Shown here one piece after another: positions 19,710 through 26,893 of a stretch of DNA of 40,587 nt. Position 1 is the stretch's first letter, and each line of letters opens with the position of its first letter. The DNA lies in assembly GCA_020832345.1 (NCBI GenBank), contig JAFIEY010000145.1:1-40587 (forward strand), given 5' to 3'. Below the pieces are notes generated by a model, which had not been told where the DNA came from, made no database searches, and saw only the letters and a list, made by a program, of their open reading frames with translations. A program made the translations under genes and the position numbers. Source of the stretch: Cryomorphaceae bacterium (lineage in GTDB: Bacteria > Bacteroidota > Bacteroidia > Flavobacteriales > Schleiferiaceae).

Positions 19710-20705
19710 ATGCATGTAAAAACTTTTCTGGTATTTTTATTTTTTTTCTTCGCGATTAATTGTGTCGGACAGCCTAAGGTTATTCCCATGAACCAGTGGC
19801 TCAATCGTCTGGAAACATTTGCGCTATACCCCAAAATTGACACAACTGTGATGAAAGCCTGTATGGTGACCAATGTGGGAAGTTCTGATAATTGGTTTAA
19901 CTTCCCGCCTACCCATGCGGTGCGTTTTGGCCTACACATTTCTGATTCTGTAGATGAGAGGAAGCACCCATATTTATCAGCTCTGGCTTATAAAAGATGG
20001 AAAAATTCGGATATTTGTCCGCCCGAAGAAATTACAGTCCCCAAAACCTATTTAAAATCCGTGGAACTTTTCGATCCTGGAAAACACAGTTGGCAACCCT
20101 TTCGCACAGATGGCCCTTTCCTCCTCTCCCACATTGCCGAAGTTTCTGCCACTACTGAACAAGCCTGGAAAAATGCCAACCCACATTTGATTTATGAAAT
20201 CATTCCCACTTCTGGGGCCATTTTGTTTTTCCCGGTTTACGAAAGCAGTCTTATCGATTCCATGTTGGATATGGCCAGAGTGGCTTATCGCGATTACCAA
20301 AAAGAACTTGCGAAAAAATCCCAGGCAAAGTATTATTCCGTTACCGTAAAGAGTGGACAAAGTCTGTCCATTATTGCCGAAAGGGAAAACGTTAGGGTAA
20401 GTGAAATTATGCGCTGGAACAAACTTGCAAGTGATCGAATTTATCCCGGACAAAAGCTGCTCATTCAGGGAGAAAAAGTTGTTCAGCAAAAAACGGAATC
20501 CGTAAATAAAACGGAACCCATGAAAAAATCGGAACCTGTAAGTTTTGACGGCGAAACCATTGACTATACGGTAAAACCCGGTGACTCCCTTTGGCTTATT
20601 GCCCAAAACCACGATGGTGTTTCGGTGGAAGAAATTATGTCCATAAACGACCTTAAGGATGCGAATATAATTGCTGGTCAGGTATTGAAATTACCAAAAA
20701 AATAA
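19710..20705 (+). CDS. Secreted protein with two LysM domains
   Basis: The 331-aa protein has an N-terminal signal peptide (MHVKTFLVFLFFFFAINCVG) that could also be read as a lipoprotein-like signal because of Cys18. An N-terminal domain of about 185 residues follows that I do not recognise (PxHAVRFGLHISDS, SWQPFRTDGPFLLSHIAEVS). Two LysM peptidoglycan-binding domains follow (about 208-253 and 284-329, each with VKxGxSLxxIA), joined by a short Lys/Glu/Pro-rich repeat linker (KTESVNKTEPMKKSEP). It opens a run of four same-strand genes with 1-5-nt junctions (LysM, SGNH, SGNH, MBOAT). LysM binding to glycan strands suggests that the module acts at the cell wall. Confidence 0.85.
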   Translation: MHVKTFLVFLFFFFAINCVGQPKVIPMNQWLNRLETFALYPKIDTTVMKACMVTNVGSSDNWFNFPPTHAVRFGLHISDSVDERKHPYLSALAYKRWKNSDICPPEEITVPKTYLKSVELFDPGKHSWQPFRTDGPFLLSHIAEVSATTEQAWKNANPHLIYEIIPTSGAILFFPVYESSLIDSMLDMARVAYRDYQKELAKKSQAKYYSVTVKSGQSLSIIAERENVRVSEIMRWNKLASDRIYPGQKLLIQGEKVVQQKTESVNKTEPMKKSEPVSFDGETIDYTVKPGDSLWLIAQNHDGVSVEEIMSINDLKDANIIAGQVLKLPKK

Positions 20706-20710
20706 CCCTG

Positions 20711-22249
20711 ATGAATCGCGATTTTGTTTCACCTTGGAAAACTTTGCTCGTCCTACTCAGCGTAGGACTGATCATTGGGTTGGGAATCGCATTTGAGTTG
20801 GATGGCGTTAAAATTGGAAATTTTGAATTCTTGTTTCCCACCGTGGAAGATTTAAGTGAACCCAAACGAAAGGTCAACATGGATCGCTTGCTTCAGGATT
20901 ATCACGAAATTGATATACGAGGCAAAGCAATTCCCCCAGAGGATTCCCTTCCCCTTGCAGAACCCGTGGACACTATAGTGGAAGAAGTTGAGGACGAACC
21001 AGAAGAATATATTCCGCCACCGAGAGATTTACAGTGGAATAGTGACCGACCACATCCGCTAAACCGCTTTTACACATCCCTTCGTCGTGGCGAGCAAAAG
21101 AAAAAGGTGTTTCGGGTTTTACACTACGGTGATTCACAAATTGAGGGAGACAGAATTACTTCACGCTTTCGGGAGGAGTTGCAAAGGAAATTCGGCGGAC
21201 GAGGACCGGGATTACAATCTTTTACACCATTGGTCACCAATTACTCCATTCGGGTGGAAACATCTGCCAATTGGAAGCGATACCCGGGTTTTGGAAAAAA
21301 GGACACCAGTATAACCCACAACGAATACGGGCCCTTGATTTCGCTTTCCCGGTATAAGCGAACCGACAGTTTGACGACGGCTACAGCCACCATAGGCCCC
21401 AGTAAATCAGGTTATGGGAGCATTCGCAGCTACGACAAAATTAAAATATACTTCGGTAAATTAAATACGCCGGTGGGTCTGTCGGTTGCTTTGGAAGACA
21501 GCATATTTTATCGGGATACACTGGGACCACAAACGCCTTCACCTTATACACTTAAAGTTCCCAAACCCCTAAAACCCATCACACTCACCTTTGACGGAGA
21601 ATCCCCTGATTGGTACGGGTTTTCAGCGGAAAGTTACTCGGGAATAATCGTGGATAACATTCCCCTTCGCGGTGCATCTGGAACATTTTTCAGCAATATT
21701 CCGGAAAGGCATTTCACCGGACACTTCAACCGTGATGAGGTGCGGCTAATTGTGTTGCAATTTGGTGGAAATGTAGTGCCGTATATTGATTCAGAAGAAA
21801 GAGCAAAAAAATATGGCAAACAAATCGAGCGACAAATTGCGGTTTTCCAATCGAGATTTCCCCGTGCTGATTTCATTTTTATAGGCCCCTCAGATATGGC
21901 GACCAAAGTCCGAACCCGAATGGAAACTTTTCCCTATTTAATTCACGTCCGGGATGCTTTAAAGGAAGCCGCTTTCAATCGAGGCATTGCCTTTTGGGAT
22001 ATTTTTGAAGTAATGGGAGGAGAAAATGCCATGACCGCGTGGGTGGAAAATGACCCACCACTCGCAGCACCGGATTATGTGCATTTCACCGTAAAAGGAG
22101 CAAGTGTGGTCGCTCAGTGGTTTAGTGAGGCACTTGAAAAGGATTTTGAAACGTGGAAAAAATCGCAAGAGGACAAAGCGGTAAAAAAAAGTGAAGAAGA
22201 GGAAAGTGTGCAAAATGCAGAAAAAGAAACATTAGAAACACAGGATTAA
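20711..22249 (+). CDS. Membrane-anchored SGNH/GDSL hydrolase-like protein
   Basis: The 512-aa protein has an N-terminal membrane helix (about 10-28), an acidic and Pro-rich linker (about 72-106) and an SGNH-type domain. Block I reads HYGDSQIEGD with Ser142 as candidate nucleophile. GGN at 352-354 fits the oxyanion Asn block, and DYVH (455-458) gives the Asp/His pair. The phrase FWDIFEVMGGENAM before the DxxH block is shared with the next gene, so the two are paralogues. The C-terminus is a charged Lys/Glu tail. Similar proteins act as O-acetyltransferases or O-acetylesterases on peptidoglycan or polysaccharides (PatB/Ape1-like, AlgX-like); which one applies here is not decided by sequence. 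It begins 5 nt after the LysM gene. Confidence 0.85.
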   Translation: MNRDFVSPWKTLLVLLSVGLIIGLGIAFELDGVKIGNFEFLFPTVEDLSEPKRKVNMDRLLQDYHEIDIRGKAIPPEDSLPLAEPVDTIVEEVEDEPEEYIPPPRDLQWNSDRPHPLNRFYTSLRRGEQKKKVFRVLHYGDSQIEGDRITSRFREELQRKFGGRGPGLQSFTPLVTNYSIRVETSANWKRYPGFGKKDTSITHNEYGPLISLSRYKRTDSLTTATATIGPSKSGYGSIRSYDKIKIYFGKLNTPVGLSVALEDSIFYRDTLGPQTPSPYTLKVPKPLKPITLTFDGESPDWYGFSAESYSGIIVDNIPLRGASGTFFSNIPERHFTGHFNRDEVRLIVLQFGGNVVPYIDSEERAKKYGKQIERQIAVFQSRFPRADFIFIGPSDMATKVRTRMETFPYLIHVRDALKEAAFNRGIAFWDIFEVMGGENAMTAWVENDPPLAAPDYVHFTVKGASVVAQWFSEALEKDFETWKKSQEDKAVKKSEEEESVQNAEKETLETQD

Positions 22250-22254
22250 ATACA

Positions 22255-23517
22255 ATGATACGAATTTGGTTTTTAAGTTTATTTATCCTTATTGGCATCA
22301 CAAGTTGGGGGCAAAATCCCAAAACTTTGAGTGAGATTGAGAAGAAATATCCATTTTTACACGCCGAAAATGCGTTGCTAAAACACTACGGGGACAAACA
22401 AGCTGCGCAATATTTCTTCGAAAAACTCATTATGCTCAATTTATGTGGGGAGGGCCGAATAAACGTCACCCATTTTGGAGGAAGTCACGTTCAGGCCGGA
22501 ACGCTTTCCCGCACCCTTTGGCGAAATTTACAATCTCTTTACCCCGACGCGCCCGGTTCACCGGGATTTGTATTTCCCTTCAACCTGGCCAAAACCAACA
22601 ATCCAAGACATTACAAAACGGAATCAAGAGCTAGCTTTGAAAGCATTCGTTCAGCAAGACCGTCCGAGCATGCCCGCTGGGGTATGGCTGCAATTACGGC
22701 TAAAACCATGGACACCACCGGTTTTTTTCGAATGTTTAATCAGGATGATGACAATAGGTACTGGAAATTTGACCGCTTCAGGGTTTATACACCAATTGGA
22801 GATTCCTGCTTTGCCTTATTCCCCGATTCCAACCTTCCGGTCATTGAGACGATAATAGACACCATGGCCGGGATGATAGAATATGTGCTTGACAAGGAAG
22901 TAACTGAGGTGGTTATGCACTGGAAAAAAACCGATAGTCTGCAAAAAGTACTGTATATCGACGGAGTTCAATTGCTCAACGACAAGCCCGGCATCACCTA
23001 CCACGCCATGGGCGCAAATGGAAACAGCACAAACTCCCTCGTTCGCAGTGAGGCCCTTTGGCCACAATTGAAATACCTCCATAGTGATTTGGTTGTTTTT
23101 GGTGTGGGAATAAACGATGCACATAAATCACAGTCGGCTTTTTCGGAAAGAGAATATGCCGATAATTATCGGAAAATTATTGATAGTTTAAGAGCTGTAA
23201 ACCCCAAGGTCGCGCTGTTATTTGTGACCAATAATGATAGCTACTATAAAAATATGCCCAATCCAAACGCCAAAAAAGTTCAACGCATCATGCAGGAACT
23301 CGCAACCGAATACGGCGGTTGGGTTTTTGACTTATTCAATTATATGGGTGGCATGAATGCTTCGCAAATATGGGAACACCACGGTTTGGGAAAACGCGAC
23401 AAAATTCACTTTACCAATGATGGATACCGCATTCAGGCAGACGCGATGTTCCAAGCCATACAACACGCCTTTTTTGACTATTTATCACAAACTTACGCTG
23501 AACCACTTGTTCCCTAA
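22255..23517 (+). CDS. Second SGNH hydrolase-like protein, variant block I (GGSH)
   Basis: The 420-aa protein has a signal peptide (MIRIWFLSLFILIGITSWGQ) and an SGNH-like fold. Block I reads HFGGSHVQAG (Ser77), so the usual Asp of GDS is Gly76. Block III reads GVGIND (Asn287) and the Asp/His block is DKIH (382-385). It shares the FxxxMGGxNA...W...D..HFT..G pattern with the preceding gene. Ser, Asn, Asp and His are all present, so catalysis is plausible. PatB-like acetyltransferases often have GDSH, and the His after Ser is kept here. The MBOAT gene start overlaps its stop codon (TAATG), which argues for translational coupling and a shared acyl-transfer task. Confidence 0.82.
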   Translation: MIRIWFLSLFILIGITSWGQNPKTLSEIEKKYPFLHAENALLKHYGDKQAAQYFFEKLIMLNLCGEGRINVTHFGGSHVQAGTLSRTLWRNLQSLYPDAPGSPGFVFPFNLAKTNNPRHYKTESRASFESIRSARPSEHARWGMAAITAKTMDTTGFFRMFNQDDDNRYWKFDRFRVYTPIGDSCFALFPDSNLPVIETIIDTMAGMIEYVLDKEVTEVVMHWKKTDSLQKVLYIDGVQLLNDKPGITYHAMGANGNSTNSLVRSEALWPQLKYLHSDLVVFGVGINDAHKSQSAFSEREYADNYRKIIDSLRAVNPKVALLFVTNNDSYYKNMPNPNAKKVQRIMQELATEYGGWVFDLFNYMGGMNASQIWEHHGLGKRDKIHFTNDGYRIQADAMFQAIQHAFFDYLSQTYAEPLVP

Positions 23518-25184
23518 TGGAAGTCGTCAATTACATACTCGGTAAATTATTCACACATTCGGGTGAATCGCCCCTGATATTTACACAGGTATATTTTTGG
23601 TACTTCTACGCAGCGGTGCTGTTCTTTTTCGCACTGCTTTATCCGAGAATGCGGCTTCGAAACGCTTATTTATTTTTCATTTCCCTGTATTTTTATTACC
23701 AGACCAGTGGTTTCTTTTTTCTCATCCTGATTTTTTCAACGCTAGTAGATTTTTTCATTGGAAAACAAATATTTAGAGCCAAAACAGATGTCGGAAAAAA
23801 ATGGTGGGTTGCTTTTTCTATTACGGTCAACTTGCTTGTACTTGGGTATTTCAAATACGCATATTTTTTCACCGAAAATTTCAATGCGCTATTTTCCACA
23901 AATATCGAGGTTTACAACCACTTTGCCCTTTGGAGTAATGGCTTTTTCGGATCGGAGTTTCGGGTAGATCGCATTTTGCTGCCGGTCGGAATTTCGTTTT
24001 TCACCTTTCAAACCATCAGTTATTCCATCGATATTTACCGGGGCTTAATAAAACCGGTTCGCTCCATATTCGATTTTGGATTTTATGTTTCATTTTTTCC
24101 GCAATTGGTCGCAGGGCCAATTGTCCGCGCATCCGACTTCATTCCACAGCTTTATAAGCCTTACCAGCTCAACAAGCTAGATTTCGGGATGGCCCTTTTT
24201 TGGATTTTAAACGGATTACTTAAAAAAATGGTTTTGGCAGATTATATCGCCGTCAACTTCATCGACAGGGTTTTTGCCAATCCCTTGAGTTATTCAGGTT
24301 TTGAAAATGTCCTGGCCCTTTATGGATATTCGTTGCAAGTATATGCCGATTTTTCGGGTTACACCGACATAGCCATAGGTCTGGCGCTTTTACTCGGGTT
24401 TCATCTGCCCTTAAATTTCAACTCCCCGTATAAAGCCAATAATGTGGGCGGCTTTTGGAAGCGTTGGCACATCAGCTTGTCGTCCTGGCTTAAGGACTAC
24501 CTTTATATTCCCATGGGAGGAAACCGAAAAGGTTCCTTGTTTTCCTATATCATGGTGGGCGTTATTGTATTTTTTATCAGTATTTTGTCGGGTGCGTTAT
24601 GGGTTCCTATGTTGGCGATTGGTGTCATAATAATATTCACCATTTTAGCACTGAATTTTCCCAAGGCAAAAAAGCAAATCGATACCAATATCAACCTCAT
24701 GCTCACCATGACCATTGGCGGATTATGGCATGGTGCGAGTTGGAGTATGGTGATTTGGGGCGCATTAAACGGCATAGGGTTAGTGATTTATAAATGGGTG
24801 AAAAACATCCTACCGTGGCGCAATAAAGAAAAGTGGTACAACCATGCTATTGGGGTATTCATTACCCTCAACTTCATCACTTTTACCCGGGTTTGGTTTC
24901 GAGGAGAAAATTGGGAGAAGTCCAATTTTATGTTAAATCAAATCGCCTACAAGTTTCAATGGGAAAACGCTTGGGCCGTCATGACTGAGTTTTCCAATGT
25001 GTTTCTGCTCATGCTGGCCGGTTATATTATTCATTGGCTTCCCGCAACATGGAAAATTCAGTACCGACACACCTTTGTTAGGTTGCCACTACCGGGGAAA
25101 ATTGTTGTGGGCTTTGTTGTGTTTTTAGTCATCTACCAAGTGATGTCTGCAGAACTTCAACCCTTTATCTATTTCGCGTTTTGA
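23517..25184 (+). CDS. MBOAT-family membrane O-acyltransferase (AlgI/PatA-like)
   Basis: The 555-aa polytopic membrane protein of the MBOAT family moves an acyl group, usually acetyl, across or onto an extracytoplasmic acceptor. Signature motifs are FWKRWHISLSSWLKDYLYIP with its conserved His, MGGNRKG, and the catalytic-His segment GGLWHGASW. A long hydrophobic stretch between these motifs (PMLAIGVIIIFTILALNF) seems to be one or two extra membrane helices. In AlgI or PatA systems the MBOAT passes acetyl to a periplasmic SGNH partner; here two such partners lie directly upstream with overlapping or nearly overlapping ends. The last 20 nt overlap a convergent sulfotransferase gene. Confidence 0.92.
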   Translation: MEVVNYILGKLFTHSGESPLIFTQVYFWYFYAAVLFFFALLYPRMRLRNAYLFFISLYFYYQTSGFFFLILIFSTLVDFFIGKQIFRAKTDVGKKWWVAFSITVNLLVLGYFKYAYFFTENFNALFSTNIEVYNHFALWSNGFFGSEFRVDRILLPVGISFFTFQTISYSIDIYRGLIKPVRSIFDFGFYVSFFPQLVAGPIVRASDFIPQLYKPYQLNKLDFGMALFWILNGLLKKMVLADYIAVNFIDRVFANPLSYSGFENVLALYGYSLQVYADFSGYTDIAIGLALLLGFHLPLNFNSPYKANNVGGFWKRWHISLSSWLKDYLYIPMGGNRKGSLFSYIMVGVIVFFISILSGALWVPMLAIGVIIIFTILALNFPKAKKQIDTNINLMLTMTIGGLWHGASWSMVIWGALNGIGLVIYKWVKNILPWRNKEKWYNHAIGVFITLNFITFTRVWFRGENWEKSNFMLNQIAYKFQWENAWAVMTEFSNVFLLMLAGYIIHWLPATWKIQYRHTFVRLPLPGKIVVGFVVFLVIYQVMSAELQPFIYFAF

Positions 25185-25821
25185 TCAAGGCTGCACCCAC
25201 GTCGGTTTGACAAAAATGATTTAAAAGTGAAATTTGGGATACATCGGCATTTAACAGCTTTTCGTAATCCAAAACGATGCGTGAATTTCCCCGAAGTTGT
25301 TTTTCTGCCTGCTCCTTGTATTTGCGCCAAAGCTGATGGGCTGCGGCTTCGTCCACAAGGATTTCCGATTGCACTTCTCCCGGTTGTTGTTGTCTTTCCA
25401 TGAGGCTACGAACAACCTCCTCTGCACCTCTACGCAGGTAAATTACTTTTCCGTCTGGAAACATTTTTAACCAATGGTCAAGCGTAAAAGTATTCCGCGG
25501 ATCTTTCCATCCCCATTTTTGTCGGCGCAGCCACAAAGTTAGCAGTTCACGACGTTGCGTTACCCCGAAGTGACTTTTGAGTAAACTGCGCTTATCGTGA
25601 GGCGGCCAATGTCGTTCTTCGGGCACAACCGGATTATCCCATGCACCACCCGCTGCTTGTAAAGCTTGTTGATTGAGTGATAAAAAATGCCAAGCTTCCT
25701 GATTTTTGTCCCGCGATACACCCATGTTAATTCCCGCATCGTGCATGGCCTTAGTCAACCATGAAGTTCCACTTCTATGGCATCCGATAACGATAAACGG
25801 AGCGGAAAAAGCAGGAAGCAT
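25165..25821 (-). CDS. Sulfotransferase-family protein (small)
   Basis: The 218-aa protein has the sulfotransferase P-loop-like 5'-phosphosulfate motif near the N-terminus (FIVIGCHRSGTSWLTKAM, 9-26). The WGWKDPRNTFTLD segment and KVIYLRRGAEEVVRSLMERQ fit the 3'-phosphate-binding block. The presumed donor is PAPS and the acceptor a sugar, glycolipid or protein; not known. It is shorter than typical sulfotransferases (about 260-300 aa) but all landmark motifs are present. Its 3' end overlaps the MBOAT gene by 20 nt in convergent orientation. Confidence 0.85.
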   Translation of the reverse strand: MLPAFSAPFIVIGCHRSGTSWLTKAMHDAGINMGVSRDKNQEAWHFLSLNQQALQAAGGAWDNPVVPEERHWPPHDKRSLLKSHFGVTQRRELLTLWLRRQKWGWKDPRNTFTLDHWLKMFPDGKVIYLRRGAEEVVRSLMERQQQPGEVQSEILVDEAAAHQLWRKYKEQAEKQLRGNSRIVLDYEKLLNADVSQISLLNHFCQTDVGAALIKTRNR

Positions 25822-26005: not shown

Positions 26006-26893
26006 TTATTTTTCGGAAGATTCAGTTTTTTCATGTTCTTCCATGACTTCCAACTCATCTGTTGCTAAATCGGTTTCGTCTTCAGAACTTTCCGGGAGCA
26101 TGGTTGTTTCCCAACTTCCCACAGCAAGGGGAATAATGGTTTTCATTTTGGCGTAATGCGGCTCAAAATACACTTCGAGATATCGTTGTGCATAGCCCTC
26201 ATATTGTCCGGAATCCTCTGTGCTGTTTAATCTTGGGAATTCACCCCAATTATGCGATTTTACACCAATAAACTTTGCCAACGCGTTTAGGCAAGTTTCA
26301 GTATCTGAAACCAAATCCTCCAACCGAAGGGCAAACATTTGGCTGCGAGAAAAATGTTTTGAAAATCGCAACCATTGCTCTTCGTAATGACCTCTTGATT
26401 TGTATGTAAAATGCTGAAAGGCGGAATCAGGGGTATCCCAACTTTCACCCTTTTTCATGGCTTCAAGCACCCTGTTTTCCTCAGCGACCATAGCTTGCAA
26501 TGGACTGAGGTTTTCAGTTCCATCTGCTACATTCATGCGAAAGTGGGAAACGGCACGAGCGGCGGGATCGCGGAAAAGGAAAATCAATTTTACCTTGGGG
26601 TACATCTCGGCAATTCGCTCTGCAACCTTGGGGTGGTAAATGTAAAAAGGGCTGGCCTCTCCGCATTTTTTACCTTGAGCGCGTTGAAGCTGTTCCTGAT
26701 ACCACTCCTTTCCATTTTCATAATTAAAATCAAAAAAGTGAATTTCTTTATTCTGTGCCGCTTCAATTTCAGGATGCGAGCACAAGGCTTCATAGAGTGA
26801 ACTTGTGCCTGCTTTTTGAGCGCCAACAATAATAAAGTCAGGCTTACCGGGGAGTAAACTAACCTTCTTTTTCTTTTTAAATAATCCGAACAT
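26006..26893 (-). CDS. Sulfotransferase-family protein with acidic C-terminal tail
   Basis: The 295-aa protein has the 5'-phosphosulfate-binding motif GAQKAGTSSL (24-33) and the 3'-phosphate-binding block LIFLFRDPAARAVSHF (103-118, with Arg108 and Ser116), as in heparan-type N/O-sulfotransferases. Both flanks are unusual. The N-terminus is MFGLFKKKKKVSLLPGKP, and the last 28 residues are very acidic (SSEDETDLATDELEVMEE and onward). The basic start resembles the 54-aa microprotein encoded at 28731-28895. It may modify a cell-surface glycan; the acceptor is unknown. Element copy D lies just after the stop. Confidence 0.9.
   Translation of the reverse strand: MFGLFKKKKKVSLLPGKPDFIIVGAQKAGTSSLYEALCSHPEIEAAQNKEIHFFDFNYENGKEWYQEQLQRAQGKKCGEASPFYIYHPKVAERIAEMYPKVKLIFLFRDPAARAVSHFRMNVADGTENLSPLQAMVAEENRVLEAMKKGESWDTPDSAFQHFTYKSRGHYEEQWLRFSKHFSRSQMFALRLEDLVSDTETCLNALAKFIGVKSHNWGEFPRLNSTEDSGQYEGYAQRYLEVYFEPHYAKMKTIIPLAVGSWETTMLPESSEDETDLATDELEVMEEHEKTESSEK

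Follow-up and report, generated by a model that had tools for sequence, protein, structure and literature searches.

Which polymer is acylated by an operon that encodes a LysM protein, two SGNH proteins and an MBOAT, and how do the two SGNH proteins share the work of adding and removing the acyl group? The operon lies in a 40,587-nucleotide stretch of DNA from a Cryomorphaceae bacterium (GCA_020832345.1, contig JAFIEY010000145.1), the whole of which is referred to here as the window. Its four genes, A to D, probably O-acetylate peptidoglycan and edit this mark, with D and B adding the group, C removing it and A binding the wall. The reading is based on the sequences, predicted folds, invariant active-site residues, a tyrosine motif, topology signals, co-occurrence and gene order, from which we infer the acetyl group, the peptidoglycan substrate and the way B and C divide the work. 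Peptidoglycan O-acetylation shields bacteria from lysozyme and restrains their own lytic enzymes.

Open reading frame calls on the window place the four genes on the plus strand between positions 19710 and 25184: A, a LysM protein of 331 residues (19710–20705); B, an SGNH protein of 512 residues (20711–22249); C, an SGNH protein of 420 residues (22255–23517); and D, an MBOAT of 555 residues (23517–25184). The A/B and B/C junctions are 5 nt each and C overlaps D by 1 nt (TAATG), which makes a single transcript of all four genes likely. Reading frames, junctions and Pfam matches all agree with the compact LysM/SGNH/SGNH/MBOAT module that an earlier note on this DNA had described. A gap of 290 nt separates A from an upstream DUF4249 gene, which belongs to a TonB-receptor set. 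A regulatory role for the gap was considered and dropped, promoter- and terminator-like sites being no commoner there than in shuffled sequences.

The end of D is overlapped by 20 nt by a convergent sulfotransferase gene. Two sulfotransferase-family genes lie 3′ of the operon on the minus strand (25165–25821 and 26006–26893); relatives of the first also adjoin D in three other loci (L035, L037 and L038), in varying orientation. The window further contains ABC export genes, TatC, Sua5, an M16 peptidase, a TonB receptor, LGT, TGT, LptF/G, a DNA ligase and one isolated GT4 glycosyltransferase. Pfam matches and a survey of the neighbours revealed no capsule, exopolysaccharide or other polysaccharide locus in the window. 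Assignment of the operon to a capsule or exopolysaccharide locus was rejected on account of these neighbours. The earlier note had held that an MBOAT belonging to a capsule locus elsewhere would undo its proposal; this is not the case, and a search of the host genome found no second MBOAT.

D is assigned to the MBOAT family by Pfam and is the only such protein of the genome. PatA of C. jejuni acetylates the tyrosine of its own C-terminal FXYXXF motif and requires a conserved histidine, and the acetyl-tyrosine peptide is the donor used by PatB (PMC12148441). D contains the corresponding MBOAT histidine, His405, in a WHG motif (24729–24731, plus strand; position from the alignment, role from PMC12148441) and ends in FIYFAF (25164–25181, plus strand), a form of the FXYXXF acyl-tyrosine shuttle motif (PMC12148441) with Tyr552 as its tyrosine. 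Both residues are invariant in 27 homologs, and D thus has the sequence features expected of PatA. That these features were shown to matter in PatA (PMC12148441) favours the acetylation reading. D is proposed from its sequence to be a PatA-like acyl-CoA:tyrosine transferase acting across the inner membrane; by analogy with PatA and from measurements in other species, the acyl group would be acetyl.

B and C are paralogous, as the earlier note had suggested (profile–profile probability 99.9, E 8e-33, 366 columns). Their AlphaFold models (mean pLDDT 82 for B and 91 for C) superimpose on Ape1 of N. meningitidis and C. jejuni with Z scores of 31–37 over 341–350 residues, the inserted carbohydrate-binding-like domain included. 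For the other SGNH folds listed, Z scores do not exceed about 17; PatB scores about 13–14. Foldseek and sequence profiles likewise match both proteins to Ape1. Like the Ape1 esterase (PDB 4k3u, 8gkd and 8gld), both have the full-length fold, the Ser-His-Asp triad and the inserted CBM35-like domain, but B differs in being membrane-anchored and C in often having GGSH instead of GDSH.

The B model consists of an N-terminal transmembrane anchor (residues about 8–27), a low-confidence linker and an Ape1-like SGNH domain. Topology prediction agrees in giving one strong, uncleaved N-terminal helix without a cleavage signal, so that the SGNH domain of B, like that of PatB, is predicted to lie in the periplasm, tethered by one N-terminal membrane helix. 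Its Lipase_GDSL_2 match in Pfam falls below the curated cut-off. Alignment of 27 homologs identifies the triad and oxyanion residues Ser142, Gly321, Asn354, Asp455 and His458 as invariant, with Ser142 (21134–21136, plus strand) as the block I nucleophile in GDSQ and D455-x-x-H458 (22073–22084, plus strand) as block V. In the model, a beta domain (approximately 21203–21640, plus strand) is inserted where Ape1 has its CBM35-like domain. Block II of B is the invariant Gly321, whereas that of solved PatB is Ser or Asn (PMC12148441). B resembles PatB less (Z 13–14) than Ape1 (Z 31–35), although fold rank by itself is compatible with a PatB function.

C is an Ape1-like SGNH protein with a signal peptide, also predicted in most of its homologs. 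It matches Lipase_GDSL_2 in Pfam and is the sole PF13472 match in the host genome. Ser77, Gly256, Asn287, Asp382 and His385 are invariant or nearly so among 26–27 diverse homologs. Ser77 (22483–22485, plus strand) is the block I nucleophile, within GGSH here and GDSH in many relatives, and D382-x-x-H385 (23398–23409, plus strand; from the alignment) forms block V. As in Ape1, the SGNH fold is interrupted by a CBM35-like domain and the triad is intact (model Z 34–37 over 341–347 residues). C is proposed to be a peptidoglycan O-acetylesterase, and B the acyltransferase partner of D. Since block II of B is Gly and the nearest solved relatives are esterases, B and C may both be esterases or both be transferases. 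Either B would be a transferase built on an Ape1 fold, or the roles of B and C would be exchanged.

A is a secreted protein with two C-terminal LysM domains (PF01476, E 6.6e-31), encoded by 20340–20465 and 20565–20696 on the plus strand. Its N-terminal ∼200 residues (19710–20340) matched no Pfam family; they are kept among neighbours (AVRYGL...VDER). The host genome has LysM genes at just four places. Where the upstream region is intact, most genomes of the window's family have a homolog of A immediately 5′ of B. Beyond this family, a LysM protein precedes B in two others, and L084 and L085 are among the loci with a homolog of A in that position. The separate LysM gene is a genuine but lineage-restricted addition to B-C-D. 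In Flavobacterium, Capnocytophaga, Myroides, Dysgonomonas and Aureivirga, LysM is found inside C, within the inserted domain. The C protein of L095 (7721–9922) has 734 residues with LysM domains close to its C-terminus, and an additional C-like gene lies upstream in divergent orientation. In L096, L097 and L098, three loci from other families, the gene immediately 5′ of B encodes a glucosaminidase (PF01832), which points to another link of the core to peptidoglycan. Links to peptidoglycan thus arose several times, as a separate LysM gene, as LysM within C and as a glucosaminidase before B, and their repeated occurrence indicates peptidoglycan as the substrate.

Gene order across Bacteroidota, which the earlier note had named as a check, is conserved for B, C and D, the LysM gene being the lineage-restricted part. 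Among 60 related genomes, 23 full orthologs of D were found, and C and B adjoin D wherever the contig allows. Eighty named Bacteroidota loci were selected by B alone (from Flavobacterium, Myroides, Capnocytophaga, Dysgonomonas, Hymenobacter and others); in 74 of them B, C and D follow in this order on one strand, which is far beyond chance. In a set of 247 Bacteroidota genomes, B is present in 48 and D in 46, and all 46 genomes with D also hold B (Fisher p 5e-48, kinship ignored); in the two genomes with B only, it lies at contig ends. C occurs in 28 of the 48 B genomes, always together with B, and is absent from the other 20 clusters. D is found without C in 19 of 46 genomes and never without B. 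In L093–L098, where C is found downstream or on the opposite strand, B and D are still neighbours; besides B-C-D, the arrangements seen are B-D-C, B-D plus a convergent C, and a short SGNH gene followed by B-D. The B-D pair is the constant core and C is accessory, and on this ground we attribute transfer to B and removal to C.

In ten genomes (L103:6840–12520 and L186–L194), the orthologs of B and D flank genes for a small acyl carrier protein and an enzyme resembling fatty-acyl-AMP ligases, and nine of these ten cassettes also have a short SGNH gene upstream. Such a cassette joins a Dlt-like acyl supply to a PatA-like FXYXXF MBOAT, and our literature search found no paper on it. Its acyl group is probably not acetyl, and the acyl group handled by B-D relatives need not always be acetyl in the phylum.

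Peptidoglycan O-acetylation (OAP) clusters, namely patA-patB-ape1 and ape1b-ape1c-pat (PMC1199599), are defined by an MBOAT together with two SGNH proteins, and the MBOAT gene D is likewise clustered with two Ape-family SGNH genes. Clusters of the ape1b-ape1c-pat type were described in 2005 in B. thetaiotaomicron, B. fragilis and P. gingivalis, and peptidoglycan O-acetylation was measured at 27% and 69% in the two Bacteroides (PMC1199599); a later review quotes 56–66% (PMC11382707). As in B-C-D, two genes for SGNH proteins of the Ape1 family come before an MBOAT gene, in the same order and the same phylum. Judged by gene make-up and order against the published description, the B-C-D core very probably belongs to this cluster type. 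Two differences stand out: the operon adds a LysM gene in front, and Ape1c is defined as being without the ∼100-residue segment after motif I (PMC1199599), whereas C carries an inserted beta domain and falls outside that definition. The patA-patB-ape1 clusters of Neisseria and Campylobacter resemble the operon in their FXYXXF-tailed MBOAT, membrane-anchored SGNH protein and secreted Ape1-fold SGNH protein, but gene order differs. PatB itself has no carbohydrate-binding domain, has Ser or Asn in block II and bears beta-hairpin wings, unlike B with its Ape1 fold, inserted domain and Gly.

Dlt D-alanylation and the alginate AlgIJFX system likewise acylate an envelope polymer with an MBOAT and SGNH proteins. 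Membership of Dlt was rejected, as the window has no ligase, carrier or DltX and D scores 148 bits against the DltB model (NCBIfam TIGR04091), far below the equivalog cut-off of 375. Membership of AlgI/J/X was rejected too, no AlgJ- or AlgX-type domain being matched in B or C by Pfam up to E 0.1. The operon is best read as a Bacteroidota OAP cluster and not as a new pathway. Of the earlier note's proposal, wall acylation with one SGNH protein transferring and the other removing the group is thus retained as the best reading, and the distinct pathway drawn from two SGNH proteins plus LysM is not, the MBOAT with two SGNH proteins being a known make-up.

Under this reading, D would take acetyl from cytoplasmic acetyl-CoA via His405 and load it onto its own Tyr552, in the C-terminal FIYFAF, at the periplasmic face. 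B, held in the inner membrane by one helix, would accept the acetyl on Ser142 and hand it to muramic acid in peptidoglycan. C would be an Ape1-type esterase that is exported to the periplasm and strips the acetyl there so that lytic enzymes can act. A would bind peptidoglycan through LysM and probably tether C, or all of the proteins, to the wall. Two parts would be out of the ordinary, the additional LysM protein that binds the wall and an atypical enzyme for acetyl transfer. We lean slightly towards the view that the Bacteroidota peptidoglycan O-acetyltransferase is not PatB but B, membrane-anchored and with an Ape1 fold, an inserted carbohydrate-binding-like domain and a block II Gly.

The 1-nt overlap of C with D would suit an exchange of roles, in which D supplies C as the transferase and the esterase is membrane-anchored B, and the Ape1-type block II Gly in both proteins means that sequence alone cannot separate them. 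Such an exchange is unlikely, however, given that D dispenses with C and never with B, that B and D stay together where C has moved, and that the signal peptide and the LysM gains belong to C and not to B. It is also very improbable that B shares esterase activity, or a dual function, with C and that D itself or an unlinked protein moves acetyl to the polymer. Both do have the block II Gly of esterases, and both SGNH proteins of ape1b-ape1c-pat were called esterases, under the name Ape, in 2005 (PMC1199599); PatB was recognised as a transferase only after that paper. Described MBOATs of D's kind nevertheless require an SGNH partner (PMC12148441), and in the host genome nothing matches DUF459 above the cut-off and only C matches PF13472.

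The target might instead be an exopolysaccharide, LPS or a lipid-linked glycan, with the two SGNH proteins working in series as AlgJ and AlgX do on alginate. An MBOAT with two SGNH proteins is indeed also found in alginate systems (PMC12148441), and the relatives with a ligase and a carrier suggest other acyl groups in the phylum. Acylation of another polymer is nonetheless quite unlikely: the window has no polysaccharide locus, B and C match Ape1 over their whole length and not the AlgJ/AlgX families, and the LysM and glucosaminidase associations indicate peptidoglycan.

What is new beside the published clusters is the added LysM gene, LysM within the esterase, and a B protein that fails the block II test though it is the only consistent partner of D. 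Literature on MBOAT, SGNH and LysM in Bacteroidetes yielded no account of the four-gene form, of the added LysM gene or of LysM within the esterase. O-acetylation has been measured in Bacteroides, yet no later study assigning its enzymes was found (a 2018 review does not mention Bacteroides, and a 2024 review gives Pat enzymes for other phyla). If our reading of B is true, the transferase and the esterase would descend as paralogs from a single ancestor, and the proposed Gly-to-Ser/Asn rule separating transferases from esterases would fail across the phylum. LysM, as separate proteins or within the esterase, would direct removal of the group to the wall. An esterase-type active site would then carry out transfer, and gut and environmental Bacteroidota would use a PatB-free route.
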